Below, piece after piece: positions 7,232 to 36,277 of a stretch of 64,000 nt of DNA. Location of the stretch: contig NZ_MEFG01000027.1 of NCBI RefSeq assembly GCF_001724715.1, positions 2,914 to 66,913 on the forward strand, written 5' to 3'. The position numbers and the translations under genes are program-made. Positions within the stretch are counted from its first letter, which is position 1. Every line of letters begins with the position of its first letter. Source of the DNA: Sphingomonas sp. SCN 67-18. GTDB lineage: Bacteria > Pseudomonadota > Alphaproteobacteria > Sphingomonadales > Sphingomonadaceae. The notes under the pieces are model-generated. The model did no database searches and was not told the DNA's origin. It saw only the letters and a program-made list of their open reading frames with translations.

Positions 7232-7233
7232 GA

Positions 7234-8220: not shown

Positions 8221-8615
8221 CGATCCTGCTCCGCACCGAGCGTGCGCCGTCCGGCGGCGACTTGGCGGCCGACCTGCGCCACGAATGCCTCGAACCGCTC
8301 GCGGCCGATCGCCCGTCCTGCCTGATCGCCATCCGCGAGCGGGGCCTGGATCGAGAGTTCGAACCGGATGAAGAGCGCGACCGTCTCGAGGAGGATGTAG
8401 CCGTCTCGCTCGATCCGTGAGAGCGCGTTCGTCATCCGATCGAGCCTAAGCCCGAACCGGTCATCCAGTTCGGACGAACCGCGGCGGTCGAGCCAGGCCG
8501 TCAGAGCATCGGCAAGGATCGCCGATTTTGTCGCCCCGGGCTTTGCCGCGAGGGTTTCCAGCCGGTCGCTGAGCGGCTTCGCGAGGAACAGCTGATGGCG
8601 GACCTTCTCGACCAT
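8217..8615 (-). CDS. CopG-like ribbon-helix-helix protein of the tra operon
   Basis: This is a 132-residue protein that starts with a predicted ribbon-helix-helix DNA-binding segment: a beta strand (KVRHQLFLAK) followed by two helices (SDRLETLAAKPGATKSAILADALTAWL). A longer C-terminal helical part follows, of the sort annotated as CopG family in traG-trb operons. It sits between traG and trbB with a 2-bp gap and a 4-bp overlap, its conserved position in this family of elements. By analogy it may regulate the transfer operon or act at the relaxosome. That role is inferred from position and fold only. Confidence 0.85.
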   Translation of the reverse strand: MVEKVRHQLFLAKPLSDRLETLAAKPGATKSAILADALTAWLDRRGSSELDDRFGLRLDRMTNALSRIERDGYILLETVALFIRFELSIQAPLADGDQAGRAIGRERFEAFVAQVGRQVAAGRRTLGAEQDR

Positions 8616-8617
8616 GG

Positions 8618-14077: not shown

Positions 14078-14773
14078 TCAGCCTGCGGCCGCATCCCCGA
14101 AAGGATTGGGGAAGATACGGCGCGCGATGAAGATCCCGACGATGAGCGCGCCGGGGAAGCGGGCCGACAGGAGATTGTGCGCAGCGCGAAAATGCGTGCC
14201 GGCGGTCAGGACGTCATCGACGATCCCGATCGTTTTCGGCGGCGGCGCGGCGAGCGTCTCGTCGATCTGATAGAGCCCCTGGAGTGCCTCCAATGTGATC
14301 CGATCCCCTGCTCCGGCCTCATGCGATGCCGTAGTCGATTGCGATTGGACGATCAGATTGCGGACATCGAGGCCAGGCGCGATGCCGCGGCAAAGCCGCT
14401 CGATCCTGTCGTCATGATCCTCATGGTCGCGAGTCTTTGAACAGGGGATCGGGACCAGGGTAGCGAACTGCAGCCATCCGGCATTGAGCGATTGACCAAG
14501 TGCCATTGCGCACTCGGCGATGGCCCTGCCCTTATGGGCATAGCCCCGCGCTGCGCTCTGGCTCGGCTTCTTTTTCAGATTGGAGATGAGACCGTTGGTC
14601 GCGCTGAACGAGAAATCGCGACCCGAGGTATATTCGTACAGATAGAGACACTGGTCGCCGGCCGCGAGGTGATAATGGTCGCGTCGGTTGCTATCGTCGA
14701 TCTGGGAGAGCCGGATCGGTTCAGGCAAGCGCGTTCCAGATGTCGTCTGGGGTCCGCACCCTGATTGCACCAT
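14078..14773 (-). CDS. ComF-like phosphoribosyltransferase-domain protein
   Basis: This 231-residue protein carries a type I phosphoribosyltransferase PRPP-binding loop, IGIVDDVLTAGTHFRA, near residues 185-200. Upstream motifs of the ComF type are present (GRAIAECAMAL, LVPIPCSKTR). It overlaps the end of the DprA-like gene by 53 bp if ATG 14773 is used. A TTG at 14728 inside a TTGCCTGA stop/start overlap would fit the operon style better, so the start is uncertain. ComF and DprA are classically linked to DNA uptake, but this DprA-PRTase pair sits among defence genes. The substrate is unknown. Confidence 0.75.
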   Translation of the reverse strand: MVQSGCGPQTTSGTRLPEPIRLSQIDDSNRRDHYHLAAGDQCLYLYEYTSGRDFSFSATNGLISNLKKKPSQSAARGYAHKGRAIAECAMALGQSLNAGWLQFATLVPIPCSKTRDHEDHDDRIERLCRGIAPGLDVRNLIVQSQSTTASHEAGAGDRITLEALQGLYQIDETLAAPPPKTIGIVDDVLTAGTHFRAAHNLLSARFPGALIVGIFIARRIFPNPFGDAAAG

Positions 14774-15608
14774 CCTTCTCGAACCGCGCCGGCCAGGTGA
14801 TATCGGCGCGCTGGAAGCAGGAATCGAGGATGAAGAGCTTGCGGCCCTGATGAAGCGCCGCCCGTGCCTGGGTAAGCGTACCCGACGTCTCGCCCGCTTC
14901 GACGATGATCGTACCCATGGTGAGGGCGCTCATCGTCGCGTTCCGCTCCGGAAAGAAGAAGCGGTTATGTTGCGGGCTCTGGCGACCGTAGCGCAGCACC
15001 GGCACTTGCGAGATCAGCAGGTGATCGGCCGCGATGAACTTCTGCAAGTCGGCATTCTCACGGGGATAGCTTTGGCCAAGGGGCGTGCCGATAACGGCGA
15101 TCGTGCGGCCGCCGCGGCCGATCGCTGCCCTGTGCGAGGCGGAATCGATGCCCTTTGCCAGGCCCGAGACGACGGTGATCCCCCGATCCACCAGCGCGCG
15201 CGCCAGTCGCGATGCGCGCTTGACCCCGTCCTCGGACGCGTCCCGGCTTCCGACGACAGCTATGGCGGGGGTTTCCGACAACTCCCAGCTGCCCTGATAG
15301 TAGAGCATTTCGACCGGATGACGGGCGTGCCGCAGCTTGGCGGGATAGTCGCCAGCATGATTGATGCGGACACCAAACTGATGGACCCCGGCAGCCTTGA
15401 GCTTCGCAAAAACCTGATCCGCATGTTCATCAGCCACTGCGGCGGGGACAAAGTCGGATGGCAGCGCGGTCGGATCGGCAGCAAATTTCTCGGCAAGGCT
15501 TTTGAAAGTAGCGCCCTGCTCCAGCCAAAGCGCCTCATAGGCACCGAGCTCGCGGCGTGGTGAGATAGGCGAGATGGCTGGACCGCTATCGCTCAACGCC
15601 AAGCGCAT
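14721..15608 (-). CDS. DprA/Smf-like (SLOG-fold) protein paired with phosphoribosyltransferase
   Basis: This 295-residue protein has the DprA/Smf Rossmann-like fold. Visible motifs are IAVVGSRDASEDG, VVSGLAKGIDSASHRAA, GTPLGQSYPREN, FFPERNATMSALT and the C-terminal IIVEAGETSGTLTQARAA. Housekeeping DprA loads RecA onto incoming single-stranded DNA. This copy lacks the C-terminal winged-helix domain of standard DprA and has its own N-terminal region, so it may not be the housekeeping gene. SLOG-fold proteins in conflict systems can bind or process nucleotides. Transcription is divergent from the HEPN-like gene at 15805, and the shared 196-bp gap is relatively AT-rich. Confidence 0.85.
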   Translation of the reverse strand: MRLALSDSGPAISPISPRRELGAYEALWLEQGATFKSLAEKFAADPTALPSDFVPAAVADEHADQVFAKLKAAGVHQFGVRINHAGDYPAKLRHARHPVEMLYYQGSWELSETPAIAVVGSRDASEDGVKRASRLARALVDRGITVVSGLAKGIDSASHRAAIGRGGRTIAVIGTPLGQSYPRENADLQKFIAADHLLISQVPVLRYGRQSPQHNRFFFPERNATMSALTMGTIIVEAGETSGTLTQARAALHQGRKLFILDSCFQRADITWPARFEKDGAIRVRTPDDIWNALA

Positions 15609-15804
15609 GCACTCGCCTCCTTTCTCGACCCGATCAGGGATCCGTTTCGCCTACCATGACTCAATTTCATAACATAGCTGTACGGTCAATGTTCTTTCTT
15701 TGTTCCATCTTTGCGCGTTAAACAGCAGAAGAGGCCGCAGACAATTGCGCCGATCGTATGTGAGATTTTCGGATCTCACGGTATAGGGGTCGAAGGAGAA
15801 GAGC

Positions 15805-16401
15805 ATGGGGGAACAGCACGAAGGAAATTTCGACGGGGATCTGCTGTCGCCGATCAGCGAGCTGGGATTTGTCCGCTTCCTCCTCGCCGATCTGCATGAC
15901 GACCTGGACGGGAAGACAGCCAGGTTCCGGCAGTTGACCGACCTTTCAGGGGCGCTCGGTTCTTCGGGCACGATGCTCCCGGGTGCCTATACGACCTCCG
16001 CTGCGTGGCGAGAGGCGCGAACCAGTTTCGTTCAAGGCAATTTCGTCGCGACGGTGATGCTCTGCCAAGGACTGGCCGAGCATGTTCTGGCCGCCCATCT
16101 GGAGATGCTGATGGACGATGATCCGCTGCCACCCAAGATCAGCTTTGTCGAGACGCTGCGTCGGTGTCGGGAGCGGTCGGTCATCTCGGAAGAAGACGCC
16201 GCCGACATGCGGCGCCTGATGGCCCTACGCAATCCGCTGTCGCATTTCCGGACGATCGATGACCCGGCGACGCTAATGCAGCGCGTCCTCCAGACGAGCG
16301 AATCTCCGGACAGCCATTTGTTGCGCGACGCGACGTTCGCGATCAGCATGGCGATACGCCTGCTGGCGCTGCCTGCCTTTCGGCTCGACAGTACGGAATG
16401 A
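15805..16401 (+). CDS. HEPN-like protein upstream of the DISARM-like genes
   Basis: This is a 198-residue mostly helical protein. The motif RNPLSH near residues 142-147, in MALRNPLSHFRTIDDP, fits the HEPN R-x4-H active-site pattern. The surrounding helices (GLAEHVLAAHLEMLM and the C-terminal AISMAIRLLAL) suit a HEPN-type four-helix bundle. HEPN proteins are often RNases in abortive-infection systems. ATG 15805 has a usable upstream purine run (GAAGGAGAAGAGC). It lies 187 bp before the drmE-like gene on the same strand, so it may be co-expressed with it, but the gap is long enough for a separate promoter. Confidence 0.6.
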   Translation: MGEQHEGNFDGDLLSPISELGFVRFLLADLHDDLDGKTARFRQLTDLSGALGSSGTMLPGAYTTSAAWREARTSFVQGNFVATVMLCQGLAEHVLAAHLEMLMDDDPLPPKISFVETLRRCRERSVISEEDAADMRRLMALRNPLSHFRTIDDPATLMQRVLQTSESPDSHLLRDATFAISMAIRLLALPAFRLDSTE

Positions 16402-16588
16402 CATCCAGTTGTCAGAACGAGAAGCCTGCGCGTCTAAGGAAAAGGGCATTCCAAACTCGCACCATTACGGACCAAACGAGACCGAGACGGTAGTGCCCAC
16501 TGCCCGCCTCGGCTATCGTTTGAGAACATTTTGGCAACCTGTGATGGAGTGATTCGCCAAGGCGGTTTGTTATTCCGGGGGAATAAGA

Positions 16589-19393
16589 GTGCGTTGGGGG
16601 GCTGATCAATTCAGCAAAATGCAGGAGGACCGCGCAGCGCAGAAGGCGAAGCGCGGTGCGATGGCCGCTGAGATCAAGGCCCGCGCAGCTGCGGAGGCTG
16701 CTGCGGCCAAAGCGGAAGCCGAGCGGCCCGGTCGGTTCGACAGCATTGATATCGGCGCCGCGCTGGCCTTTGCGCAAACGCTTCAGTTTCGACGGCACGA
16801 CCTGGAACTCGGACCCGCGGCGAGTCTGAACCGCCCGACCCTGTCGCTTCTAAGGCACGTCCTCGAGGCCCTCGTTGCCGGGTCATCGGCGGCGGTGCTG
16901 CAATGGCCCTTGGGCCAGCGCGATATCTCGATCCTCCACCCGCTGACCATGCTCGCCATGCTTGGATCGCGGCCCGCAACCATGGTTGGGCAGCTGCGCT
17001 CATGCGACGCGGTGCCTGACTTTCGCACGCTCTATTACCCATGGCGCGGCGGGGGCACGGGTGCCGATCAACGCACATGGCTGGCTGATAGGCAGCAGAT
17101 ACTCCGGCCCAACTCGCTGCATCTGACCCGCCGCGAGACGGGACAGGCGGAGCATTCGGATGCGATGCGCGACCTCCACGAAATGCTCGGGCATTTCAAC
17201 GCGCTGCGGCGACGCGATCAGAGCCATCCCCATCTCGCCCATCCGGCACTCTCCGAACTTTACCCGCTGTTTTCGGCCGATGGGGGTGACGGGGCCGCGC
17301 CGATCTTCAGCCGGGCCGCGCACGAACTGTTCGGCCGTGTGCGCCACGGGGCCGGAATCGATCGCCTACCCGACCACCGCGCGACGCTGACCAATCCCCA
17401 GACAGCCCCATTTGGATTCTATGGAATCACGCGTCGCGCCGACCCGCGCGCTGCCCTGCGGCACGACAAATTCAACCCGAGCCGGGGTGGCCGCGCGCCC
17501 GATATTTGCATCCTCGACCTCTGCTACCCGGGCCTCAACCGCCTCGGCTATCATTGGGAGGAACTGATCGGCACGTTCCTGGAACTGTTGCTCGCCCAAG
17601 CCCCGAAGCTTCCTATTTTGGCAGTGACGCAGGATGCTTATGTGCAGCGACGGATCGCCGGAATCCTGCGACAATCCAAGGCTGCGCGCCTGGCCAACCG
17701 CACGACCATCGCCCAGTCGGTCCTGATCCGGATTACTGGCGACATTGTCGCGCCCGACCCGGCGATCGAGCGGGTCACCCCGATCGAAGTGGAGTTGCAG
17801 TCGATCGGCGGCGCCAGTGTCGCCGCGCTCGACGCCATCGGCGAAGCGGCGCGCGGCTGCTCGGATCCCGCGCTGGCGGGTGCGCTGCGCCGAAGCGCGG
17901 CCAATCTCCGGCGCGCGGCCGCGCTCCCGACCGGACTGTCCGCGGCCTACAATGCGCTGTGCGATCTTGATGGCCAGGCCGCCGCCGAAGCCTTTCTCGA
18001 ACAACGCTCCGAAGCCTCGGTTCTGTCGCCGATCCTTGACGCCCTCGCCACCGGCGTGTCGGGCGCGCCTCGCGAGCGCCTGCTGGCCGCCGAAGCCGCA
18101 GTGCGCGCCGCCTATGCCGGCCTCGACGCTGAGACGCCGATCGGCTCCGCGCTTACCCAGCTGGCGACAACGCTGGCGAGGGCATCGACCTTTGGCATCG
18201 TGGTTTTCTCGGACGAAACCGATCTGCGCTTGGCGGAGGTTCGACTGGCCGGGAATGCCACGGCTGCGGGCATCCTACGCCGACGCATGGAACGCGGGCA
18301 GACCCGAATGACCCATGCCGGCGTCCTCGAGGAGAGCCTGGCGGCGATCGAAGCCGGCCCGTCGCGCAACAGCTGGAAGAGACTGATTCTTGTCGCCCCG
18401 CGTCTCGGCTTCCTCGACAAACTCATGGCCCGCGGGTGGCTGCCTGAGCAGATGCTCATCCTGTGCGACCGGGCGTTCGCAACGCGTGTCGCCAGCAGCT
18501 ATGCAGGCCTGGCCAAACACCAGGACTTTGGCGGCCAAGGGCGAATCGGCGATCGGCTGCGCGTCATGGCTGCTGCCGCCAAGGCGGAAGCCGAAGCGCG
18601 CAACGTAGGCTCGGTCGATCTCGAGCTCAGCGCGCGTCCGCCGGTCGACGTGCCGGACACGATCATCGACATGACCGATGGCGAGGCTCTCGACCGCGAC
18701 GTCATCCTGATCACCCTGGAAAGCGGCAGGGTGCTGCGCGCCTGGCGCGGATCCTCGATGATCCGGCACAATCGTCACGCGGCGATCAATCCCTATGATC
18801 GGGCCTCCGCCAGTCAGCTCCGCGCCGGCGATGCGATCGTTGTGCCCGATCGCGCCTTTGTCGATGCCGCGCGACGGGTGCTTCCCGTCCATGTGCTCGC
18901 CCAAGGGTGGGTGAAAATCTATCACGACACCATTGTCGGTGCACTTCCGACGCTGCCGGGCGGCACGCTCAGCGCGCAGGCGCGCGCGCTCCATGCGCGC
19001 CTGCAGGCGCAGAACCTGCGCGCGACGAGCGTCGCCGCCGTCCAGGAGTGGCTCCGGGCAGAAGATCATCGCGCTGACCCGGCCGAACGGTTGCGGCCGC
19101 ATGCCCCCCAGGCCCGCAGCGATTTTGACCTCTTCACCGCTGCCCTTAACATCCCACCAGCCATCGCCGACAAGATGTGGAACGAGGGCATCGATCAGCT
19201 GCGGGTCGGGCGACGCCGCGCGGGCGCGCGGATGGCGCGGGCCTTCATCTCGGTGCTGGTCGATCCGCATGGTGCCGCTGCAGATCTCGACGCCGATGTC
19301 AGGAGTCGGATCGCGGAACTGCGTGATCGTGCCGTCGATCATCTGGATATCGTGGCGGACGTGCGGGATGCAGACGAGAGGGACGCGACATGA
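16589..19393 (+). CDS. DrmE-like large protein of DISARM-like system
   Basis: This is a 934-residue protein without a domain I can name with certainty. It starts with a charged Ala/Lys/Glu coiled coil (residues about 10-45). A middle region has ICILDLCYPGLNRLGYHWEELIG and an LPILAVTQD strand. A later part has RLILVAPRLGFLDKLMARGWLPEQMLILCD, which looks Rossmann-like. It directly precedes drmA and their ends overlap as ATGA. Class 2 DISARM has the order drmE-drmA-drmB, and this position and size are the main reasons for the DrmE-like call. The GTG start at 16589 is supported by GGGGGAATAAGA just upstream. Homology to characterised DrmE is unproven here. Confidence 0.6.
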   Translation: MRWGADQFSKMQEDRAAQKAKRGAMAAEIKARAAAEAAAAKAEAERPGRFDSIDIGAALAFAQTLQFRRHDLELGPAASLNRPTLSLLRHVLEALVAGSSAAVLQWPLGQRDISILHPLTMLAMLGSRPATMVGQLRSCDAVPDFRTLYYPWRGGGTGADQRTWLADRQQILRPNSLHLTRRETGQAEHSDAMRDLHEMLGHFNALRRRDQSHPHLAHPALSELYPLFSADGGDGAAPIFSRAAHELFGRVRHGAGIDRLPDHRATLTNPQTAPFGFYGITRRADPRAALRHDKFNPSRGGRAPDICILDLCYPGLNRLGYHWEELIGTFLELLLAQAPKLPILAVTQDAYVQRRIAGILRQSKAARLANRTTIAQSVLIRITGDIVAPDPAIERVTPIEVELQSIGGASVAALDAIGEAARGCSDPALAGALRRSAANLRRAAALPTGLSAAYNALCDLDGQAAAEAFLEQRSEASVLSPILDALATGVSGAPRERLLAAEAAVRAAYAGLDAETPIGSALTQLATTLARASTFGIVVFSDETDLRLAEVRLAGNATAAGILRRRMERGQTRMTHAGVLEESLAAIEAGPSRNSWKRLILVAPRLGFLDKLMARGWLPEQMLILCDRAFATRVASSYAGLAKHQDFGGQGRIGDRLRVMAAAAKAEAEARNVGSVDLELSARPPVDVPDTIIDMTDGEALDRDVILITLESGRVLRAWRGSSMIRHNRHAAINPYDRASASQLRAGDAIVVPDRAFVDAARRVLPVHVLAQGWVKIYHDTIVGALPTLPGGTLSAQARALHARLQAQNLRATSVAAVQEWLRAEDHRADPAERLRPHAPQARSDFDLFTAALNIPPAIADKMWNEGIDQLRVGRRRAGARMARAFISVLVDPHGAAADLDADVRSRIAELRDRAVDHLDIVADVRDADERDAT

Positions 19394-22300
19394 GCGACAG
19401 CCATCGGGGCGACGCTGCGCTCTCCATCGTCACCGCGGACCTGACGTCGACCGAACGGGACATGTGCGCACGCGGCATCGGCGACCTGACAGAGGCCAAG
19501 GAAGCGATCGTCGACGGTCTTCTCGGCCTGACGCTCGCTTATTGTTCGGGCGAAGGACCGATTGGCGAGGTGATCCTCGGCAGCAAGCCGTCCGGACGCC
19601 TGGTCAGCGGGGTTCTTCTACCACGGTTCGACCAGGCGGGGGACGACGAAACCAGCGACATTCACCTGGCCACGATGGGGCTGGATGTTCAGCTGGCGGC
19701 GGAGTCGGTCGGGACGGTTGTGGTTCAGCCGGCCTTCTCGATCTACGTACGCGAGCTGCCAAGCTGGGATGAACTCAGTGACCCGCGGCACGACATGATG
19801 CCGCAGATCCTGCTGTCCAGAGTCACACGCCAGCAGGTCGAGACATTGGCGCGCAGCTATATCGACGAAGCGCTCGCGGCGCTGCCTGCGGTGGCCGATG
19901 AAGAGCCCGACGAGCGTTCGGGCGACGCCGAGGCCGAGGCCGACCAGGCGCGTGAACGCGCCGATGTCGCCGCAGAGAATGTCGAGCCCGGCGACGCAGA
20001 AACGAGGGGGGAAGCTCAAGCAGCGGCACAGGCTGCCGACCGCGCGGAGCAGGCGGCAGCCGGTCGCGCGGCAGCAAGCATCCGGCGGCGCGAAGAGCGT
20101 CTTGAGCGCGGTCGTCAAAGGACGGCCATTCGACGCGCAGCGTTCGATCGTGCGTTTCGCGAGCTCGGTATCACGCTGAGACCCGCAGATGATCAGGACC
20201 ACGCCGCTCGGCCACTGACGGCCGACGACATGATCGAGGCGGAGGTCAGCGACACGGCGATGACCGACGTCCCCGAGCCCGAACCGGAGATGACAGATGC
20301 CGGCGATGGGGAACAAGGTCCGCCGGTTGCCAGCGGTGCCATCGGGGCGCTGCGCCCAGATGCCGGACGGCTTGAAGACAGGCACGCTGCCGCCCAGGCG
20401 ATCCCCCAGAAATGGCGGCGACACATATTACGGCTCGACCCCGTGACCCTGGCGATCGCCGATCCAGCCGCGCGCCTCTCGGCCTGCGCCGGTTTTGCGG
20501 CCCAGGTGACAGCCGAGGTCGATCGCGTATTGGTCGCGTGGCTCGCAACGCCCGAGGGCCAGCGCGATGCTTATCGGCGCGACGAGCATATCCTGCCCAG
20601 CCAGTTTGCCGACCGCGCGGCGTGGGACGCTTATCTCGACAGCCTGCGTCAGCGGAAGCCGGCAACACTCGACGATGTTCGACCGCGCCTGGCTGGCGTC
20701 AATCTCGTAGCAGAGGTCGACCCGGATTTCGTGGATCAGAGTCGCGTCAACATGCGCGTCGCGATCGAGAACGGTGCGCTCCAACCCGCCACCCGGCATC
20801 TCAGCGGCTTCGAGCACGGCATTTTTCAGGTCAAGCTGACCGCGACCATAGCGGCGTTGGATCATCGACCGTTGCGCCTCGACCGGGTCAAGCCCTCCTA
20901 CCGATTCCGTGACTGGCTCGAATATCCCGCGATGGGCCTAAATTGCGGCGTCGAAGATATCAGCGCGAATGCTGCTGCGGTCGTCCTCGAAACGACATGG
21001 GCGCCGCGCTATTGCCAGCCCCGGATCGACCCCCGCGATATACCGGGCGTGCCGACCGGATACGCAGCGTTGAGCGACCCGGCGACACCGTTGGAGCAGC
21101 TCTTTGCGCTGCCCGATGCCTATGACGTCTGGATCGGCGCCCAGGTCGGACTCGACGTCGAACATGATCTCGAACCGGCCCAGGCGACCCAGGAACGGGC
21201 CGCCCATAGCCGAGACCTCGAGGCCTACCGGCGCGAGAGCGGCTATATTCGCGCTGGCGTTCGCCTCCTCATCGCATCACGCGAAGCCGATGCCGCTCAG
21301 GCAACAGAGCGCGATCCGGCCCGGCGCGCGGCGCTGGCGCGGCAAGCGGCGCCCTGGCGCGCCTGGCTGCACACCAACGAGACTTTCGCCCAATATGGCG
21401 GTGCCCGCTACACGGATTGGCGGCTGTTCCAGCTCGCCTTCATTCTCGCCCATATTCCGACCTTGGCGTCTCGCATGCCGGATTTTGCGGACCATTTCGA
21501 TGCGTTCCGGGATGAACTGTCGGCGAGCCTGCTCTACTTCCCGACGGGCGGCGGCAAGTCGGAGGCCTTTTTCGGGCTCCTGATCTTCAACTTGTTCCTT
21601 GATCGCCTGCGCGGCAAGACGCGCGGCGTAACGGCGCTGGTCCGCTATCCGCTCCGCCTCCTCACCCTGCAGCAGGCGCGACGACTGCTGAAAGTGCTGG
21701 TACGGGCCGAACTGGTCCGGCTTGCCCAACGCATCGGCGGCTGGCCGTTCGAAATCGGGTTCTGGGTGGGGTCCGGTAATACGCCCAATCGCGCCGCCCA
21801 AGGCTTTGGCGGCGTCCCCACCATCACGATGGCGGCCTACCCCGACGACCAGGCGCTGCTCAATCCGCCCGAAGGGACAAGCCCTGCGGCTGCCGTCGCT
21901 CGGCGACGATCGAACCGATATCGAGAGGCACTGGAGGCTTTCGATAAGCTGCGGGTTTGTCCCATTTGCCAATCGCCGACCGGCATGCGCAAATATCCTG
22001 CGCAATTTGGCCGGATCGGCATCGTCTGTTTCAACGATACAACCTGCGCCTGGAACCTTGCTCATCCGGCAGCGCCGACCCGGACCCCATTGCCCTTCCT
22101 GCTCACCGACGACACCATCTACCAGCGCGCGCCCTCGGTAATCCTGGGAACGATCGATAAGCTGGCGCTGATTGGCCAGCACGACCGCACCATCAACGCG
22201 ATCGTCGGCATGTTCGGCGCTGCGCGGTATCGCGACCCGACAAGCGGTCATCTTTTCATGCCGCGGACGGGGCCGCAACTCGAGCGCGCCGAAGATGATG

Positions 22301-24048
22301 GGTGGGAACGGGTGTGGCCGGCCTTTGCAGCGGGCGTTACGCTATTCCACGATCCCTTTCCCAGTCTCGTGATACAGGATGAGGGGCATCTACTCGACGA
22401 GAGCCTGGGCACCTTTTCGGGATTGTTTGAGACCGTTTTCGAACGGATCCAGCTGCGGCTCGGGGCGGGCGTCCTAGGCGCCCAATGCGCGCATTGGCGC
22501 GAAAACGGCGATGCCGCACCGCGCCCACGGCTCGCCAAGGTTATCGCGGCAACCGCGACGATCTCCGATCCTGATCGCCAGCTGCGCGTGCTGTATCAGC
22601 GCGAATCGCTGCGCTTTCCGTGTCCGGGGCCGGGTCTGTACGATTCGTTCTTCTCGGCGTCGCGCGAACCGTTGCGGCCCGAACGCCGCGCCTATGCACA
22701 ATCGTTGCCCGAACTCTTGCGCCCTGAGCGGTCCGCACCGCGCATGCGCACTTACGTGTCCGTGATGACCAACGGTCGGTCGCACACGATGACGACCTCC
22801 GCCGTCGTCTCGGCCTATCATCTGGCCTTCACGCAACTGTGGCAGGCGGCGGAAGCCGGTGACGCGCCGGCGCTGGTCGCCGATCTTGTCGCCGGTTTGC
22901 CCGCGCATGACCCCCTGACCCCCTTGCGGGCGGCGGCACTGCAGGATTTGGTGGCGTCGCCCGATGTGCTGGCCACGCTGCTCGATCTCCAGAGGATCTC
23001 GCTGACCTATGTCACCAACAAGAAGGGCGGTGACCAGATCATCGAGACCCTGGCATCGCAGGTCGATCGTGACCAGCGTGCTGCCGGGATCGGCGATCTT
23101 CCGTTCGCTACCGAGCTCATCTCAGGCGGCGTGACGATCGCCGAGATTCAGGATGTGATGGAGCAGGCCGAGGGACAGGGCCGGGCAGGCGCCCCTTTTC
23201 TTCCGCTGTCCGAGGCGCTCCGTAACATCGTCGCGACATCGGCGATCAGCCACGGCGTCGATGTCGACAAGTTTAATGCGATGTTCTTCGCGGGGCTGCC
23301 GGCCGATATCGCCGAATATATCCAGGCGTCGAGCCGGGTGGGCCGCAACCATGTCGGCTTCAGCATGCTGGTGCCGACACCGCACAGTCGGCGAGATCGC
23401 TATGTGGTGGAGACCCATGATCAGTTTCATCGCTTCCTGGAACGGATGATCCCGGCCCCGGCGGTGCAGCGCTGGGCGGAGCGAGCGATCCGTCGGATCA
23501 TCCCGAGCATTCTCCAGGCCTATCTGTGCGGTGTTGTGGAACAGGAAGCGTTCGAACGCGCCCCCGAAAACGCCAAGGACAGCGCCCGCAGCTTCCGAAC
23601 CGCGGCGGCGATCAAATCCTGGTCGGATCGACATGTCGGGAGTGGCGCCGGCGCCATTGCGGCGCTCACCGAATTTGCACTCGAGGGCATTGGGGTGGAC
23701 GGCCGGTCCGCCACCCGCATCGGCGCGGCGCCGCATGACGCCTATTACCGGCAGTTCGTGCAGGATCGCGTGCGCATGCTCCTCGACGTGTTCACCCAGC
23801 GATCGGACGCCAGCCTTCTTGCGAACTTCTGGCAATCGCGCGAATCGCCGACGGTGCGGCGGCCGATGACGTCGCTCCGCGACGTTGATTCAGGCGGCAT
23901 TATCCTCGCGGCTACGCGCGATCCCTATCGCAACCGATCGGTGAACCTCGAGACCGTCCGACAGGTGATGAAGATCATCCGAGGCCAGCGCTTGGCGGTC
24001 CGCACCGATGTCGATGCCGATCCTGCCCCCATCGATACGGAGGACTGA
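19390..24048 (+). CDS. drmA: DrmA-like DISARM helicase
   Basis: This 1552-residue superfamily 2 helicase resembles DrmA, the core ATPase of DISARM anti-phage systems. Walker A is YFPTGGGKSEAF near residues 717-728, followed by the characteristic ALVRYPLRLLTLQQARRLL. The DExH box is LVIQDEGHLLDE near 995. A Cys pair (CPICQSPTG) with a later cysteine suggests a zinc site near 856. Motifs V and VI are ATSAISHGVDVDKFNAMFF and IQASSRVGRN near 1285-1315. The first 400 residues are a long acidic, alanine-rich, probably coiled extension, making it longer than I expect for DrmA. DrmA uses ATP and recognises or moves on foreign DNA with DrmB. Confidence 0.87.
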   Translation: MSDSHRGDAALSIVTADLTSTERDMCARGIGDLTEAKEAIVDGLLGLTLAYCSGEGPIGEVILGSKPSGRLVSGVLLPRFDQAGDDETSDIHLATMGLDVQLAAESVGTVVVQPAFSIYVRELPSWDELSDPRHDMMPQILLSRVTRQQVETLARSYIDEALAALPAVADEEPDERSGDAEAEADQARERADVAAENVEPGDAETRGEAQAAAQAADRAEQAAAGRAAASIRRREERLERGRQRTAIRRAAFDRAFRELGITLRPADDQDHAARPLTADDMIEAEVSDTAMTDVPEPEPEMTDAGDGEQGPPVASGAIGALRPDAGRLEDRHAAAQAIPQKWRRHILRLDPVTLAIADPAARLSACAGFAAQVTAEVDRVLVAWLATPEGQRDAYRRDEHILPSQFADRAAWDAYLDSLRQRKPATLDDVRPRLAGVNLVAEVDPDFVDQSRVNMRVAIENGALQPATRHLSGFEHGIFQVKLTATIAALDHRPLRLDRVKPSYRFRDWLEYPAMGLNCGVEDISANAAAVVLETTWAPRYCQPRIDPRDIPGVPTGYAALSDPATPLEQLFALPDAYDVWIGAQVGLDVEHDLEPAQATQERAAHSRDLEAYRRESGYIRAGVRLLIASREADAAQATERDPARRAALARQAAPWRAWLHTNETFAQYGGARYTDWRLFQLAFILAHIPTLASRMPDFADHFDAFRDELSASLLYFPTGGGKSEAFFGLLIFNLFLDRLRGKTRGVTALVRYPLRLLTLQQARRLLKVLVRAELVRLAQRIGGWPFEIGFWVGSGNTPNRAAQGFGGVPTITMAAYPDDQALLNPPEGTSPAAAVARRRSNRYREALEAFDKLRVCPICQSPTGMRKYPAQFGRIGIVCFNDTTCAWNLAHPAAPTRTPLPFLLTDDTIYQRAPSVILGTIDKLALIGQHDRTINAIVGMFGAARYRDPTSGHLFMPRTGPQLERAEDDGWERVWPAFAAGVTLFHDPFPSLVIQDEGHLLDESLGTFSGLFETVFERIQLRLGAGVLGAQCAHWRENGDAAPRPRLAKVIAATATISDPDRQLRVLYQRESLRFPCPGPGLYDSFFSASREPLRPERRAYAQSLPELLRPERSAPRMRTYVSVMTNGRSHTMTTSAVVSAYHLAFTQLWQAAEAGDAPALVADLVAGLPAHDPLTPLRAAALQDLVASPDVLATLLDLQRISLTYVTNKKGGDQIIETLASQVDRDQRAAGIGDLPFATELISGGVTIAEIQDVMEQAEGQGRAGAPFLPLSEALRNIVATSAISHGVDVDKFNAMFFAGLPADIAEYIQASSRVGRNHVGFSMLVPTPHSRRDRYVVETHDQFHRFLERMIPAPAVQRWAERAIRRIIPSILQAYLCGVVEQEAFERAPENAKDSARSFRTAAAIKSWSDRHVGSGAGAIAALTEFALEGIGVDGRSATRIGAAPHDAYYRQFVQDRVRMLLDVFTQRSDASLLANFWQSRESPTVRRPMTSLRDVDSGGIILAATRDPYRNRSVNLETVRQVMKIIRGQRLAVRTDVDADPAPIDTED

Positions 24049-24049
24049 A

Positions 24050-26239
24050 ATGACCGATCGCCGATCCGGTCGGGGTGCGACACCGCCGCCGATGCCGCCG
24101 CGCATGAGCAGGTCGCAGCCCCAGCTGGCGACGGCCTATGCGCCGGGGGCCATGTTCACATGGGAAGGCGGCAAAGGCGCGTGCATTGCCGCGCCCGTTG
24201 ATGGCGCGACTATCGACTTGTCGGCACGATCGACGCGCCGGGATCAGATCTTCGACAGCATGACCGAGTTTTGTCAGAGTTGGCTGGCCCGCGGCATGAA
24301 CATCAGCCGCACCGCGCCGGTCTATGAGGTGCAACTCCTCGACGGCTGCTTCTACAACCAGACACGGCAAGGTGTCGCAGGCGTCGATATCGCCAGCGAC
24401 CAGTTCGAATTCCTGCGCCCGGAGCGCATCGGCTATGTGCCCGGGCCGCTCGTCTATCGGTGCGACAACTGCGAGATCGTGCGCGAATATCTGTCCCCCG
24501 GACATCAGGTTGCCGATCCGTTGCCGACACCTTGTCGCGCCTTCAACGGCGAACGGGAGTGCCGCTGGCGTCAGCTCGATGTCGTCTATGTGCATTGGTC
24601 TGGAGGCCTTGAGGGTCTGTCCCCTTATCGCAACATGCTCGATGGTCAGGGCGAGCTTCGCAAGATTCCCCGCTGCCAGTGCGGCACCGAGGATTTCCGT
24701 CTGATCAAGCAGGGCAATCAGTTTTCGCGCTGGCGCTTTCGGTGCACTGGCTGCGCCGCCGAGCGCGAAGTCTATCAGACCGACCCTTTTACCCTGTCGC
24801 TGTTGAAGCCGCGGATGGATGGTGGCGTTCCGCACGAATGGAGCGAGATCAACATGATCCCGATTTCCTATCGGGCATCGCCAGTCTTCTATGTCCAGAC
24901 CGCCAGGTTCATCGTCTATGACGCGGATCCCGACATTGTCACGATCATGGCGCCCACGCGCCATGTCGACCTCACCAACCGCGTTGCGGCGTTGCATGGC
25001 TTTGGCGGTTCGGATCCGTCTCCGCAGCGCATTCGCGAGCAGCTTGAAGCACGCAACAATGCCGGGATGTTCGGCCTGTACGAGAGCATGCTTCGGCAGG
25101 CGGACGAAGCTCGGCTGAGTGGCGGCGATGCGGCGACCTACGAGACGATGGCGCGGTCGATGCTGGACGCCTGGTATGCCGATGGCAATGTCGTGCGCGA
25201 GACCCAGGCATCACCGCGCCTCCAGCAGCAGATCCTCGATCGGGCACTGTACGCGCGACGGTTTGACCCGATCAGAAGCACGGTCGAACATGATGCCCTG
25301 CGACGGCGGAAGCTCATCCCATCCGGTCAATCGGCCGATCTCGCCGAGGCCCAGACGGACCTCTGCGCGGAGCATGGCGACCCAGTCGGCGAACAGGCCT
25401 ATGCGCAGCGTGTTTCGGGCGAACTGGCCCGCGCCGGCATCGCCGAAGCACGGCTTATTCGCGATCTCGATATGGTCGAATTCTCGTTCGGCTATACGCG
25501 CGTGTCCGCGGCGCCCGAGACGGTTCAGAAGAACAAATCCATGCCCGTGCGCCTGATGGGTTTCCCGCGCCTGCCGAACGATCGGCGGCCGGTCTATGTG
25601 ATCGAGCAGCAAAATGAAGCGATCTACATCCGGCTCGATCCCCAGGCGGTGGCGGAATATCTGCGACTGAACGGCGTGATGCCGGGGCCACCACCCGCGC
25701 CACGAACGATCGGCGGTGAGCTGATCGAGACTTATGAGGATTTCGGCATGTTCCTGCGCGACTTTGGTGTCCGCGACCAAGCGAGCCAGGTGCGGTCCCG
25801 GGACATCGCGTCGACGGTCTTCCTGCTGCTGCACAGTCTTTCACACCATGTGATGCACGGAATTTCGCGCTTTTCGGGCCTCGATCTCGGCTCGATGAGC
25901 GAAGCGATCTTCCCGGCCGATCTCGCCTTCCTCGTTCATCGCCGCGGCATGACGGAGGATCTCGGCAACATCTCGTCGATGTGGCGCGATCACAATGCGG
26001 CGTTTCTCGATTATCTGGTTTCGCGGCGCGAGCTGCGGTGCGGCTCGGGGACGCTCTGCGATCATCGCGGCGGGGCCTGTCCGGCGTGCATCATGATCCC
26101 GGAAACCTCGTGCATCGCGGGCAACCAGTTGCTATCGCGCGCATCGCTTGTCGGGGGACGCGCGCCCCTGTGGGACGGCAATGCCTCTCCACTGCATGGC
26201 TATTTCGAGGTCGTGCACGCACTGAGCGGGGCGCCTTAG
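24050..26239 (+). CDS. drmB: DrmB-like DUF1998 protein of DISARM-like system
   Basis: This 729-residue protein is built as DrmB, the partner of the DrmA helicase. It has several zinc-binding pairs: CDNCEIV near residue 137, CQCG and CTGC between about 208 and 240, and the C-terminal DUF1998 cluster with CGSGTLCDHRGGACPAC near 665. HSLSHHVMHGISRFSGLDLGS is a typical DUF1998 run. ATG 24050 is preceded by GGAGG and lies one base after the drmA stop. Earlier in-frame codons would sit inside drmA. Its stop overlaps tail-to-tail by 3 bp with the methylase on the other strand. Confidence 0.85.
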   Translation: MTDRRSGRGATPPPMPPRMSRSQPQLATAYAPGAMFTWEGGKGACIAAPVDGATIDLSARSTRRDQIFDSMTEFCQSWLARGMNISRTAPVYEVQLLDGCFYNQTRQGVAGVDIASDQFEFLRPERIGYVPGPLVYRCDNCEIVREYLSPGHQVADPLPTPCRAFNGERECRWRQLDVVYVHWSGGLEGLSPYRNMLDGQGELRKIPRCQCGTEDFRLIKQGNQFSRWRFRCTGCAAEREVYQTDPFTLSLLKPRMDGGVPHEWSEINMIPISYRASPVFYVQTARFIVYDADPDIVTIMAPTRHVDLTNRVAALHGFGGSDPSPQRIREQLEARNNAGMFGLYESMLRQADEARLSGGDAATYETMARSMLDAWYADGNVVRETQASPRLQQQILDRALYARRFDPIRSTVEHDALRRRKLIPSGQSADLAEAQTDLCAEHGDPVGEQAYAQRVSGELARAGIAEARLIRDLDMVEFSFGYTRVSAAPETVQKNKSMPVRLMGFPRLPNDRRPVYVIEQQNEAIYIRLDPQAVAEYLRLNGVMPGPPPAPRTIGGELIETYEDFGMFLRDFGVRDQASQVRSRDIASTVFLLLHSLSHHVMHGISRFSGLDLGSMSEAIFPADLAFLVHRRGMTEDLGNISSMWRDHNAAFLDYLVSRRELRCGSGTLCDHRGGACPACIMIPETSCIAGNQLLSRASLVGGRAPLWDGNASPLHGYFEVVHALSGAP

Positions 26240-28035
26240 GCTTTGTCTTTCGATGGCCCCTTCGTTTCAGACGCCACGAGGACGCCGTCGATCGGGGCGA
26301 AGGCCGTCGCGAGCGCAGCGTCGAACTGATCGCCCAGCTCTGGCAATGTGCTGGGGTCGGGCAGTGCCAATCGCGCCAGCAGCCGGGCCGATACGCTAAA
26401 GCTGCCCGACACGGCAGAGAAGCGAGCGTTGACCACTTCAGAATTGAGCAGGCGCGCCAGCACTTCCTGCGACACCATAGGCGTTGTGGAAAGCGGCTCG
26501 AGTACGATGACATGGTTTTCGGCGACATAGCCATCGCGCTTGTGTTGGGTGGCAAAAGATTTCGTCACCGGGGCAGCATTCAGCCGTCGACGCTGGTCGC
26601 GGTTGCTGGTGCGCTGGACCAGCACGGCGCGTCCCCGGCACACATAGGCCGCCGACTCGGGATTGATCGGCGCGTACCAGGCGAATTTGCCGGTGCGCGT
26701 TCCGCTTTGAAAGCGGAAACTGCCATTCACACGAATGTCCGACGCCCATAATACAGGAACGCGGCCCTCCGCATGTTCGGCATGCAGCAGAGCGCGCTCA
26801 CGAGTCGGGACGACCTTTCCGACCCGGATGCGATAGCCATAGGTTTCGAGGGTCGACGCGGCGTTGACCGCGATGAGCTGGTGATGATGGGCGGTCGCCG
26901 TGCCCGCGAGAGCGACCGGCAGATGCCAGGGCTCACCGTCGGCCGGCGCTGACGCGGTTCCGAGCGCGGTCCGCTGGCCGGCGGCGTCAATCCAGCCGAG
27001 CCGATAGTGATAATCATCGGCAACGCCAGGTCCGTGCCGCTGGAGCACGAGCAGGCAGACATCCTGGGTTGCGTCAATGAACAGATCCTCGCGCTGCTGG
27101 TGCATGGCGAGCTCGACAACCCGGGCGCGCTTGCGAATTTCATGGCGCAGGCCCGCAAAATAGGGGCCGGCGACGAAACTGGTGGGCAGGACAAAGGCAA
27201 GGCCGCCACCGGGCTTCAGCCAATCGAGCGCCTTGATCACGAACAGGGCATAGAGGTTGGTATGTCCGCCGAGATCGGCGCGGCCGGCGGCTTCGGTGAG
27301 CTGGTCCAACCCACTGCGGAACAGCTTGCTGTAGGGAGGGTTGCCGATAATCAGGTCGAACCCGTGGTCGAGCGACGTCGCCAGCGTGTTGGCGCAGCGG
27401 ACGATGCCGCTCGTATCTTGCTGGATGCCATATTCCCGCCGGATCATCCGGCCGAGCAGGTTCCCGGACAGCGCGGCCAGTCCAGGATCGACCTCAATGC
27501 CCTGAAGTTGTCCAGTCGCCTGGGCGCAAGCTTGGGTGATATCGAGACCCGCTGCGACATGCGCGTCGATGAGGCGGCGGGCCGTCGGTACGAGGAAGGA
27601 ACCGCCGCCACAGGCCGGGTCGAGGATGGTGGGCGCACGGCCTGCCTCGAGAAAGGGACGGATCGCATCGAGGGTCGCCGTCGCAAGAACAGGCGGCGTG
27701 AAATAGGCCGACAGCGCCTTTCGACGATCGTCACCGATCAGGAGCGCATAGGCGCTGGACACGGCATAGTCGCGCATGTCGGCATCGAGGCCGTCCAGTT
27801 GCGCGCGGGCGGCAACAGCCTTGGCTTCGGCGTGGTCCGGGTCAATCACGGCGAGGCAGAAATCGAGCGGCGTGGCATAGGCGCTTAGGATCGGCGCACG
27901 ATCTCGCCGAAGCATCGACAGGAATTTGAGCACATTTGCCCGCGGATCGGTCGCCTCGAGAGCATGATCGGGTGCGGCGGGCACCGCGTGATCTATTGCC
28001 TGTGGGGCATGCGTTCGGGTGGCGTACTCCGTCAT
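26236..28035 (-). CDS. N6-adenine DNA methyltransferase next to DISARM-like genes
   Basis: This 599-residue amino-methyltransferase has SAM motif ILDPACGGGSFLVPTA near residue 136 and catalytic NPPY in LIIGNPPYSKLF near residue 229, the signature of N6-adenine (or N4-cytosine) methylases of the Eco57I type. YFTPPVLA precedes the SAM motif as usual. The C-terminal half, with LWASDIRVNGSF, probably recognises the target sequence. I see no nuclease motif. ATG 28035 overlaps the Fic stop as ATGA, so it belongs to the XRE-Fic operon and faces drmB. By position it could be the self-protecting methylase of the DISARM-like system. Confidence 0.85.
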   Translation of the reverse strand: MTEYATRTHAPQAIDHAVPAAPDHALEATDPRANVLKFLSMLRRDRAPILSAYATPLDFCLAVIDPDHAEAKAVAARAQLDGLDADMRDYAVSSAYALLIGDDRRKALSAYFTPPVLATATLDAIRPFLEAGRAPTILDPACGGGSFLVPTARRLIDAHVAAGLDITQACAQATGQLQGIEVDPGLAALSGNLLGRMIRREYGIQQDTSGIVRCANTLATSLDHGFDLIIGNPPYSKLFRSGLDQLTEAAGRADLGGHTNLYALFVIKALDWLKPGGGLAFVLPTSFVAGPYFAGLRHEIRKRARVVELAMHQQREDLFIDATQDVCLLVLQRHGPGVADDYHYRLGWIDAAGQRTALGTASAPADGEPWHLPVALAGTATAHHHQLIAVNAASTLETYGYRIRVGKVVPTRERALLHAEHAEGRVPVLWASDIRVNGSFRFQSGTRTGKFAWYAPINPESAAYVCRGRAVLVQRTSNRDQRRRLNAAPVTKSFATQHKRDGYVAENHVIVLEPLSTTPMVSQEVLARLLNSEVVNARFSAVSGSFSVSARLLARLALPDPSTLPELGDQFDAALATAFAPIDGVLVASETKGPSKDKA

Positions 28036-28616
28036 GACCGGGCGAAGGCGAGCAAGGGGGCAATGTCGTGCGCGTCTGCGGCTCTGAGCGCGTCGACATA
28101 GGCACGGCGCATCGCGCCGATGTCGCCAAGGTTGCCGCCGGCCCAGGTGAACGGCTGGCCCTCGAGCCGCTCGATCAACAGGTCGGCCATCAGACGTGCA
28201 TGACGTCCATTGCCGTTGGGAAAGGGATGGATAGCGACTAGGCAATGGTGGAAGCGGATCGCGATTTCGTCGGCGGGATAGGTCTTATTCTGAACCCAGT
28301 AATTGACGTCGGCGAGCAGGGCGTGGAGTTCAGTCTGGATCCGGTAGGCATCGATGCCGATATTGCGTTCGGTACGCCTGAACGCGCCGGCCCAGCTCCA
28401 GACGTCCCCCAGCATCCGCTTGTGCAGTTCCCGCACAAAGCGCTCGGTCAGGATATCGGCTCGCCGGCCGAACGCCCAACCCACGCCGGCATCGATATTG
28501 GCCTGTTCGGCCTCATTGAGATCGGCGCGGGTTGTGATCCAGCTTTGCAGCAGGCCTTCGCGTTCTCCTGGCTCAAGGGGCGTAGCGTCATCGGGTTCCA
28601 CGAACAGATCCGTCAT
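28032..28616 (-). CDS. Fic/DOC protein, mobile mystery protein B
   Basis: This 194-residue Fic-domain enzyme has the complete active-site motif HPFPNGNGRHAR near residue 130 and the upstream flap region (RIQTELHALLADVNYWVQ). Fic enzymes transfer AMP or another nucleotide moiety to proteins. The start of the sequence and the pairing with the preceding XRE gene match the family called mobile mystery protein B, which is found on mobile elements. It overlaps the XRE gene and the methylase gene by 4 bp each, giving one three-gene operon. No obvious inhibitory (S/T)xxxE(G/N) helix is seen inside it. Confidence 0.88.
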   Translation of the reverse strand: MTDLFVEPDDATPLEPGEREGLLQSWITTRADLNEAEQANIDAGVGWAFGRRADILTERFVRELHKRMLGDVWSWAGAFRRTERNIGIDAYRIQTELHALLADVNYWVQNKTYPADEIAIRFHHCLVAIHPFPNGNGRHARLMADLLIERLEGQPFTWAGGNLGDIGAMRRAYVDALRAADAHDIAPLLAFARS

Positions 28617-29074
28617 GGCTTGTCCCAGATGTCGCGCTGACGGAGATTGTTGGCGATATAGTGCTGGATGCGGGCTTCGGTGTCCGTGTCCACGACACCT
28701 TGATCCTCGAGCGCCATGGAGTGCGACACGCGGCGCAAGGCATCGCTCGCGATCGCCCGCTCGCGCTCTTGCACGGTCGCCTCAAGGCTCGTCTTCGGAA
28801 TCAGGGCGTAGACGAGCACGCAGTTCATCGCCTCTGCCGCTTTTCGCAGCGTATTGAGCTGCACGGTGCCATTGGCCTCCGAAGCCTCGAGGTTCTGGAC
28901 GCTTTGGGCAGTGATGCCGATGCGCTGGCCGAGTTGGGAGCCGCTCATGCCCAAGGCGTCACGGATGGCCCTGATCCAGCCGCGCGGCGGCACAGCGAAG
29001 CGCGACGCGGGTTCGAGCGCTGTCAGGCGTTCGTCGAGGCGCTTGCGCGCCCGTCCTCTGATCTCCTTTTTCAT
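28613..29074 (-). CDS. XRE-family regulator, mobile mystery protein A
   Basis: This 153-residue DNA-binding protein has a helix-turn-helix of the XRE type at about residues 40-75 (MSGSQLGQRIGITAQSVQNLE). The pairing with a downstream Fic gene is the hallmark of mobile mystery proteins A and B. The helix-turn-helix is followed by a family-specific C-terminus (NCVLVYALIPKTSLEATVQERER). It probably represses its own operon (XRE-Fic-methylase) through the palindromes at 29073-29187, the first of which covers its start codon. It may act as the antitoxin-like partner of the Fic protein, but that is inferred. Confidence 0.88.
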   Translation of the reverse strand: MKKEIRGRARKRLDERLTALEPASRFAVPPRGWIRAIRDALGMSGSQLGQRIGITAQSVQNLEASEANGTVQLNTLRKAAEAMNCVLVYALIPKTSLEATVQERERAIASDALRRVSHSMALEDQGVVDTDTEARIQHYIANNLRQRDIWDKP

Positions 29075-29187
29075 CAGGTCATGGCCTTACGGTGAAAGCA
29101 TTATTATCAGGCTATATTCTGAAAATTCAAATAAGCAATCAGGCTTTGGCCTGATAGATTAGGACCACAATCAGGTTGTGGCCTGTT
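29073..29187. promoter_or_regulatory. Array of four phased palindromic operators
   Basis: Four related sites begin at 29073, 29106, 29138 and 29170, spaced 33, 32 and 32 bp, about three helical turns. The best copy (29138-29155) is ATCAGGC-TTTG-GCCTGAT, a perfect 7-bp inverted repeat. The copy at 29170 is ATCAGGTTGTGGCCTGTT, and the two nearest the gene are more diverged. The first overlaps the start codon of the XRE gene. They are the likely binding sites of that regulator, and the even spacing implies cooperative binding on one DNA face. Confidence 0.75.
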
Positions 29188-30428: not shown

Positions 30429-31619
30429 ATGCGATCGCTATTCTTTGCCCCGCTGCTCGCGGTGGTTCCGTGCTCGGCCCTCGCCGCGCCATTAAATTTC
30501 GACGACGCGCTCGCAAGGGCGGTCGCGGAGGCGCCTGCCCTGCGCGCCCGCGCGCTGGAGGTAGGCGCACGCCAATCAGCGGCGATTTCGGCCGGCCAGC
30601 TACCTGACCCAAAGCTCGGTGTCGGCCTCGACAATTTTCCGGTCTCCGGCCCGCCCGCCTTCACCTATTCGGGCGACAGCATGACGATGACGCGTGTCGG
30701 CATCAGCCAGGACGTCCCGAACCTCGCCAAGCGCCACGCTCGCACAGGTCGAGCCCAGGCCGACATCACCGAGGCCGAAGCTGCCCGCGTCGCCGACGAG
30801 CGCCGGGTGAGGGTTGCCACCGCCCTCGCCTGGATTGATCTCGCCTATGCGCAGCGCCGCCTGGCGGCGATTGAAACTGCTATCGGCAAGCTCGCCCGGT
30901 TGACCTCGGCTTCGGTATCGAGCGTCGCCTCGGGCTCGGCGCGTCCGGCGCAGTCCCTCGACATCAAACAAGGGGTCGCGGCGCTCGAGGACAGACGTAG
31001 CGAGGTCGCTGCGGAAATGGCCCGCGCCCGGGCGATTCTCTCACGATGGACGGGCGATCCTGCTCCCGACGCCATCGGAACAGTTCCAAATTTCACGATC
31101 GACCCGTCAGATCTGCGCGCCGCGATCGACGGACATCCCGACATTGCCGTAGCGGCGGCCCGCACCCGTCAGGCCGATGCGGACGTCCGACTTGCCCGCG
31201 CCGAGAAGCGGCCGGACTGGGCATTCGATGTCGCCTATCAGCGGCGCGCGGAGCGCTATGGCGACATGATCTCGGCGGGCGTCACGATCAGCCTGCCGCT
31301 CTTTTCCCGCCGCCGCCAGGATCCGATGATCGCCGCCAGCGCGGCTGTCGCCGGAGCGGCGCTCGCCCGGCAGGAGGATATGCGTCGCGCACTCGCCGCC
31401 GACCTCGAGGCAGCACTTGCCGACCATGTCGCGCACCATGAGCAGTGGATGCGCTCTCGCGACACGCTGTTGTCGCTCGCGCGCCAGAAGGCCGACCTCG
31501 AAACCGCCAGCTATTCGGCCGGGCGGGCAGGGCTCCTCGACGTCATCCAGGCACAATCCATGCTCGTCGACAGCGAGCTTCAGACACTCGACCGCGAAGC
31601 GATGGTGGCGCGCGACGCC
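30429..31619 (+). pseudogene. cusC: cusC-type outer-membrane efflux gene, 3' end removed by inversion
   Basis: This is a TolC-family outer-membrane channel of a CusCBA/CzcCBA metal efflux pump. The signal peptide (MRSLFFAPLLAVVPCSALA) and the outer-membrane efflux domains run for 397 codons to MVARDA at 31619. After that point the frame reads antisense into an inverted cusA segment and goes on to 32081, which is not native protein. The missing tail ([14 protein letters not shown] and stop) is found on the minus strand at about 34033-34077. Joined together it would be about 411 residues, normal for the family. As read, the channel carries a foreign C-terminus of about 150 residues. Confidence 0.85.
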
Positions 31620-32570
31620 CGACGGCAGGCCGGCCTTCAGTTCGTCGAGCTTCGACTGGACGGCTTCAATCGTGCTTCGTGCGTCCGCTCCGGAGCGCAG
31701 GATCACGACGCCGCCCGCGACCTCGCCCTCGCCATCGAGCTCGGTGATGCCGCGTCGCATTTCGGGGCCGATCTGAAGGGTCGCGACATCACCCAGCGTA
31801 ACGGGCACCCCGCCTCCAGTCGTTCTCAGGGGTACCGCGCGGAAATCGTCGAGCGTCTTCAGATAGCCCGAGGCGCGGACCATATATTCGGCCTCGCCGA
31901 GCTCGAGCACGGAACCGCCGGCTTCCTGGTTGGCGCGCCGGATGGCCTCGACCGCCTCGCTATGGGTCACGCCGTAGGCCGCGAGCCGGACCGGATCGAG
32001 CACGACCTGATATTGCTTCACCATGCCGCCGATGCTGGCGACCTCGGCGACGCCGGGAAGGCTCTTCAGCTCATAACGTAGAAACCAGTCCTGCAGGCCG
32101 CGCAACTGGGCCAGGTCGCGATGCCCGGTGCGATCGACCAGCGCATATTCATAGACCCAGCCGACCCCCGTCGCATCGGGGCCGATCGCGCTGCGCGCCG
32201 TCTCGGGCAAGCGGCCCTGAACCTGGTTCAGATATTCGAGGACGCGGGAGCGGGCCCAGTAAAGGTCGGTGCCATCCTCGAAAATCACATAGACGAAGCT
32301 GTCGCCGAAGAAGGAGTAGGCTCTGACGGTCTTCGCTCCCGGCACCGACAGCATGGTGGAGGCGAGAGGGTAGGTGACCTGGTTCTCGACAATTTGGGGC
32401 GCCTGTCCGGGATAGCTGGTCCGGATGATGACTTGCGTGTCCGAGAGATCGGGAAGCGCGTCGATTGGGGTCGAACGCACCGCCAATAGCCCCGCCGCGA
32501 CCAGCGCCAGAGCGCCCAGCAGGACGAAGAATCGATTCTGGACTGACCAGTGGATGAGCCGCCGGATCAC
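31612..32570 (-). pseudogene. cusA: cusA 5' fragment (RND pump, first third)
   Basis: These are the first ~318 codons of a heavy-metal RND pump (CusA/HME family). The N-terminal membrane helix ([18 protein letters not shown]) is followed by the porter domain: [16 protein letters not shown], the [17 protein letters not shown] motif and [16 protein letters not shown]. The last native residues are LKAGLPSGV at about 31612. The frame then continues antisense through cusC to 31107, giving a meaningless tail. The GTG start overlaps the cusB stop (GTGA). The rest of the pump is on the plus strand from 34074. The protein made from this piece cannot form a pump. Confidence 0.87.
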
Positions 32571-34039: not shown

Positions 34040-34073
34040 GGTCTTCGCCCCCATAGGTCAGCACGATATTGGC

Positions 34074-36275: not shown

Positions 36276-36277
36276 CG

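Follow-up and report, generated by a model that had tools for sequence, protein, structure and literature searches.

Two classes of DISARM defence loci have been described, class 1 marked by drmD and class 2 by drmE together with a cytosine methylase (PMC9252829). Class 1 comprises drmA, drmB, drmC, drmD and drmMI, class 2 comprises drmE, drmMII, drmA, drmB and drmC, and the PADLOC models require drmC, the gene for a PLD nuclease. The DrmAB complex of Serratia is reported to prefer 5′-overhang DNA, to be repressed by methylation and to work without DrmC, a protein described as dispensable and often missing (PMC9142583).

We analysed a stretch of 64,000 nucleotides (the window) on contig 27 of the 3.2-Mb genome of Sphingomonas sp. 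SCN 67-18, where an earlier note had proposed a non-canonical DISARM locus. All seven genes that it listed are indeed open reading frames, and all are intact. On the forward strand a HEPN gene (15805–16401; 198 aa) is followed by a large gene in the drmE position, here called X (16589–19393; 934 aa, GTG start), by drmA (19390–24048; 1552 aa), which encodes an SF2 helicase of the YprA type, and by drmB (24008–26239; 743 aa), which encodes its DUF1998-type partner. Facing these on the reverse strand are the genes for an N6-adenine DNA methylase of a DISARM-associated family (26236–28035; 599 aa), a Fic protein (mobile mystery protein B, motif HPFPNGNGRHAR; 28032–28616) and an XRE regulator or antitoxin (mobile mystery protein A; 28613–29074). 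At this locus, then, the DrmA helicase and DrmB are encoded by two neighbouring genes, a DNA methylase is present and drmC is not. That it is of DISARM type, with an adenine methylase, and lies outside both described classes has held up.

With class 1 the locus shares the split DrmA/DrmB helicase pair and an adenine methylase, but it has X and lacks both drmC and the SNF2-type DrmD, and its methylase best fits a general type II model (PADLOC PDLC03338, E=2e-98), DrmMI not being among the best 25 PADLOC models listed for it. With class 2 it shares a large non-motor gene directly before drmA and the drmA-drmB order, and most of its relatives also have drmC after drmB; it differs in that the methylase is an adenine and not a cytosine methylase and in that X is at best remote kin of DrmE. 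The YprA-helicase systems ARMADA, Druantia and Dpd (PMC12458937) likewise join a YprA-family helicase with a DUF1998-type module, whereas in the window the two are encoded by separate genes that score best with PADLOC DrmA and DrmB; compared with ARMADA, the locus has no BrxHII match, no BrxHII/PglX pair and no fused nuclease.

The locus and its setting

Both drmA and drmB had been called recognisable DISARM genes, and PADLOC profiles match both. DrmA matches PADLOC DrmA (E=1e-83) and NCBIfam DrmAS (E=3e-105, yet under that model's cut-off), and its helicase motifs PTGGGKSEA, QDEGHLL and SRVGRN are intact; DrmB matches PADLOC DrmB (E=1e-23), has a C-terminal cysteine cluster and is also below the NCBIfam cut-offs. 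Any transfer of mechanism from the Serratia DrmAB is therefore by distant homology. A search of the genome with PF09369 (MZB) gave no match, and so this family does not detect the DrmB of the window.

The absence of drmC is plain from the gene coordinates: drmB and the methylase gene abut tail to tail with a 4-bp overlap (26236–26239), which leaves no room for drmC. The corresponding overlap is 49 bp in Croceicoccus estronivorus (L033) and 25 bp in Erythrobacter sp. UBA2510 (L030). A profile of the relatives' drmC genes found no drmC at the locus; elsewhere in the genome it matched just two HKD motifs, weak and generic, on other contigs. An intact drmC of the same locus outside the window, which the earlier note had named as counting against its reading, was thus not found, nor any clear one in the genome. 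This profile also matched window 25981–26751, but out of frame, and the match was rejected as an artefact arising from drmC ORFs that had not been trimmed. Nor is there drmD, as had also been claimed: no DrmD match was found among the locus proteins or among 53 X proteins.

The adenine (NPPY) type of the methylase, read in the earlier note from its motif, is borne out by the Pfam families Eco57I (PF07669) and N6_Mtase (PF02384), both above their cut-offs, and by the motifs DPACGGG and NPPY. The type II model that fits it best is also the best PADLOC model for the methylases of two related loci (L005 and L009), and its likeness to PglX is weak. No cytosine methylase (drmMII) was seen, the N6 methylase being the sole methylase in the locus. 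A TTG at 28245 was rejected as its start in favour of the ATG at 28035, because the ATGA there overlaps the fic stop by 4 bp.

The same seven-gene arrangement is found in Croceicoccus estronivorus at 57–81% identity, and six of the seven genes, all but HEPN, are in the same arrangement in the Erythrobacter MAG; given this recurrence, the arrangement is more than chance. The window and Croceicoccus loci lie in similar conjugative surroundings, with TraG, DprA and relaxase genes in common. In the window, conjugation genes flank the cluster (277–10651, 40834–42927 and 30429–36673), encoding TrbE/VirB4-type and CagX-type proteins, a TraG coupling protein and a DUF3363 relaxase. Between its cluster and its relaxase gene the window has copper/heavy-metal efflux genes, which Croceicoccus lacks at that place. 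A DprA-like gene and a gene of 214–231 aa (family unassigned) adjoin HEPN on the opposite strand in both (window 14078–15608; Croceicoccus, L010 13308–14832), with 72–75% identity between them.

The existence of a HEPN-like gene upstream of X is confirmed by its motif, a weak match to Pfam HepT-like (E=0.047) and fold matches: the AlphaFold2 model, of modest confidence (pLDDT 58), has as its best PDB matches the HEPN structures 1o3u, HepT and Csm6. The product is a putative RNase whose RNPLSH motif (residues 142–147) is invariant in three homologues, two of these comparisons giving 64% and 61% identity. The HEPN fold and RxxxxH motif are those of HepT/HEPN RNase toxins; unlike these, the gene has no adjacent nucleotidyltransferase antitoxin and stands first, before X. 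It is present in the window, Croceicoccus and Sinorhizobium americanum loci, missing from Erythrobacter, and stands without DISARM in Ensifer adhaerens. The gene is thus real but optional, and we rejected it as a fixed part of DISARM. An inverted repeat, GTGAGAT-TTTCGG-ATCTCAC (window 15760–15779), lies just before it, a possible operator on the X-drmAB side. The element has a second HEPN gene, a nucleotidyltransferase-HEPN fusion (Polbeta + HEPN; window 10801–11706).

A clade of related loci and the large subunit X

Scanning genome contigs with X as a single-protein query gave nothing; X is present in 7 of 398 genomes of the family. We then took a drmB alignment as seed and scanned 84,980 species genomes, obtaining 75 loci; 62 non-redundant loci have at least 8.5 kb before drmB. 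By profile survey, X is found in 61 of these 62 and an N6 methylase in 59, counts that measure co-occurrence inside the window's clade and not the clade's share of all DISARM, since the scan patterns were drmB from that clade. The earlier note had held that its reading would fail if X and the methylase never accompanied drmAB elsewhere; they do so almost everywhere. The mix of class features that it pointed out is no local hybrid; a widespread form, separate from the two classes, normally has this composition. The loci span alpha-, beta- and gammaproteobacteria, Thermodesulfobacteriota (Desulfuromonadales/Geobacterales), Acidobacteriota and Ignavibacteriota.

Gene order was scored in the 60 loci, window included, that were complete enough, X being required. 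In 45 of them the methylase gene precedes X; in 10 it lies downstream on the same strand, in three it is convergent, and in two no methylase was seen. drmC follows drmB in 46 of the 60 and is not recognised in the other 14; those drmC genes of relatives that were tested match PADLOC DrmC models. Judged by predicted gene content, the five-gene set of N6 methylase, X, drmA, drmB and drmC is neither class 1 nor class 2. It is not described in the portion of the YprA-family survey used here (PMC12458937); the founding DISARM paper lies outside this comparison, and a prior mention is possible. One locus (L013 2500–3075, genome G098) has in the drmC place a different gene of ~190 aa, PIN-like by eye and with no Pfam or NCBIfam match, and a relative of this gene sits after drmC in another (L052).

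X of the window has no match in Pfam, NCBIfam or PADLOC. Its AlphaFold2 model (53 homologues; pLDDT 84.8) matches the SF2 helicases RIG-I, LGP2, FANCM and Hef in the PDB (E to 8e-7; TM ~0.2). The Walker A consensus is missing throughout 57 of 58 X proteins, the sole match being off-site (residue 542 in L055), and in the alignment the first core strand is not followed by any conserved GK[ST]. We infer that X is a degenerate SF2 helicase, predicted to keep the fold without motor activity.

A deep DrmE alignment for comparison with X was not buildable because the searches were nearly empty: among 299 genomes of one phylum there was one chimeric DrmE, a DrmE_C search of 297 genomes of that protein's order gave none, and tblastn of DrmE candidates on plasmids gave self matches or none. 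A DISARM-like locus observed in genome G1031 (L106 6613–19901) encodes a 1792-aa fusion of an NTPase-like N-terminus with a DrmE C-terminus; after it come a 580-aa gene, drmA, drmB and a gene that by eye looks like a Vsr-type endonuclease.

The XRE-Fic-methylase operon and its history

The Fic protein matches TIGR02613 (285 bits, cut-off 124) and the XRE protein TIGR02612 (188 bits, cut-off 123). The XRE gene directly precedes fic with a 4-bp overlap, as in mobile mystery A/B pairs, and fic overlaps the methylase gene, also by 4 bp; Croceicoccus and Erythrobacter retain short start/stop overlaps through these three genes, which place the methylase behind the XRE promoter. This third gene sets the operon apart from the plasmid pairs that we inspected, which are free-standing. 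In the Fic motif HPFPNGNGR the Asn is invariant in four aligned copies. Active AMPylating Fic proteins usually carry Asp or Glu at that place, and the Asn therefore leaves the toxicity of this protein uncertain; its chemistry may differ from that of the usual AMPylases.

Four 18-bp operator-like palindromes (ATCAGG-N6-CCTGAT), spaced 32–33 bp, lie at window 29073–29187 and surround the sigma70-like −35 and −10-like boxes of the XRE promoter (29103–29130, reverse strand); among 2000 shuffles, 7 scored as high as this palindrome array. An identical period, though with other letters, occurs before XRE in Erythrobacter (7/500 shuffles) and Croceicoccus (106/500), individually weaker, and before free-standing mobile mystery pairs of rhizobial plasmids (0–2/500). 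From the place of this array at its promoter, XRE probably autoregulates the operon that makes the methylase. XRE control of the X-drmAB operon is not supported, since no operator-like site was found before HEPN or X. As a side observation, the 18-bp palindrome array with its period of 32–33 bp (three helical turns) is common to mobile mystery A/B of the window and of four further loci (L120–L123), the letters being lineage-specific; it appears to be a general regulatory signature of these pairs, of which we found no published description.

The window, Croceicoccus and Erythrobacter loci form a sublineage in which drmB faces methylase-Fic-XRE and drmC is missing. In the X, drmA and drmB trees these three group, with 99–100% support, with two loci from Enhydrobacter (L031) and an alphaproteobacterial MAG (L032), both ordered methylase-X-drmA-drmB-drmC. 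In the methylase tree the three stand apart from these two, near a branch whose methylase follows drmC, and forcing the five together costs 130 units of lnL (p-AU 2e-62). This conflict means that the methylase was replaced, alongside gain of XRE-Fic and loss of drmC. By sequence, the ancestral methylase and drmC are shown to have been lost, a methylase from another DISARM branch taking over. Since all three Fic-linked loci belong to one clade, the coupling arose perhaps once. Between Erythrobacter and Croceicoccus, dN/dS for all six shared genes is about 0.02–0.13 (0.05–0.07 for Fic and XRE), figures that are rough because dS is near or above 1, close to saturation.

Proposed working and competing readings

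We think it likely that the locus defends against phages, and probably also against plasmids, as a DISARM-type system belonging to neither class 1 nor class 2, and we propose that it works in five steps, the fourth partly shown by its sequence and the first three and the fifth drawn from homology. DrmA and DrmB, joined in a helicase complex, would load onto incoming DNA whose single-stranded ends are exposed (step 1), and X, without the ATP-binding lysine, would be a DNA-binding or scaffolding subunit of DrmAB (step 2). By marking the host's own DNA, the N6-adenine methylase would keep self from setting off DrmAB, and DrmAB without DrmC would either block replication by translocation or borrow a host PLD nuclease (step 3). 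XRE autorepression would limit the methylase dose, and Fic would make the whole self-mark operon addictive, so that losing it is costly and loss of the self-mark might itself be punished (step 4). HEPN would add an optional RNase layer (step 5).

It could be objected that X is a genuine remote DrmE, and the locus a class 2 DISARM that has diverged and acquired an adenine methylase in place of its cytosine methylase, which we consider quite possible, if not quite probable. As the term "drmE-like" in the earlier note implied, X sits in the drmE position, and its size is similar (934 aa against 838 for the DrmE model); the X profile aligns collinearly with a DrmE-family protein over the C-terminal part (hhalign E=0.011) and with four DrmE-like or drmE-position proteins at E=0.05, and Pfam DrmE_C matches one of 53 X proteins (E=0.0046). 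In actual likeness the term fared less well: the hhalign probabilities are very low (1–4%), none of the 53 X proteins matches DrmE in PADLOC or NCBIfam (DrmE_fam included) at E<1, and nearly all of the related loci counted above carry an adenine methylase. Remote homology of X to DrmE is plausible, not established.

The XRE-Fic pair might also be an unrelated mobile addiction module that in one conjugative element came by chance to precede the methylase gene and plays no part in defence; we lean against this, though it is well within the possible. Mobile mystery A/B pairs are on 250 plasmid records, the four contexts inspected had no adjacent DISARM gene or DNA methylase, and the conjugative surroundings that the window and Croceicoccus have in common agree with a passenger. 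Against it stand the overlaps kept in Croceicoccus and Erythrobacter, with the methylase behind the XRE promoter, the arrival of a methylase from a different branch together with the XRE-Fic arrangement, and the strong constraint on Fic and XRE. The extra XRE-Fic layer that the earlier note suggested is accordingly kept across genera under purifying selection, but it is confined to three loci and the pair occurs also without DISARM. Improbable, in our judgement, is a degraded remnant that without drmC restricts no phage and is mere cargo of the element: drmC is missing, and drmA or X is frame-broken in some relatives (L041, L056), but the window genes are all intact, dN/dS between Erythrobacter and Croceicoccus is low in X, drmA, drmB and methylase, and a dispensable DrmC (PMC9142583) is likewise unrecognised in 14 of the 60 scored loci.

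Returning to a working DISARM-type system outside the two classes, we can go further only tentatively, to a reading that is on balance unlikely: a third DISARM class (N6 methylase, pseudo-helicase X, DrmA, DrmB and DrmC) with a sublineage that guards its self-mark by making the methylase solely from an XRE-controlled operon with the Fic toxin. Were this true, silencing of the operon, by a phage or otherwise, would unleash the Fic toxin, and an addiction or abortive arm would replace the DrmC arm.

The role of DrmE/X-type subunits was left open in the DrmAB structure paper (PMC9142583), and an apparently motorless subunit of helicase fold makes that role in DISARM testable. Because present detection models take drmD or drmE as defining DISARM, they would overlook X, which none of the libraries used recognises, and a form of defence that scores of genomes carry may be left without a name. 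The exchange of the methylase for one inside a toxin-antitoxin-like operon illustrates clearly how the enzyme that protects the host from a dangerous self/non-self system might be made secure.
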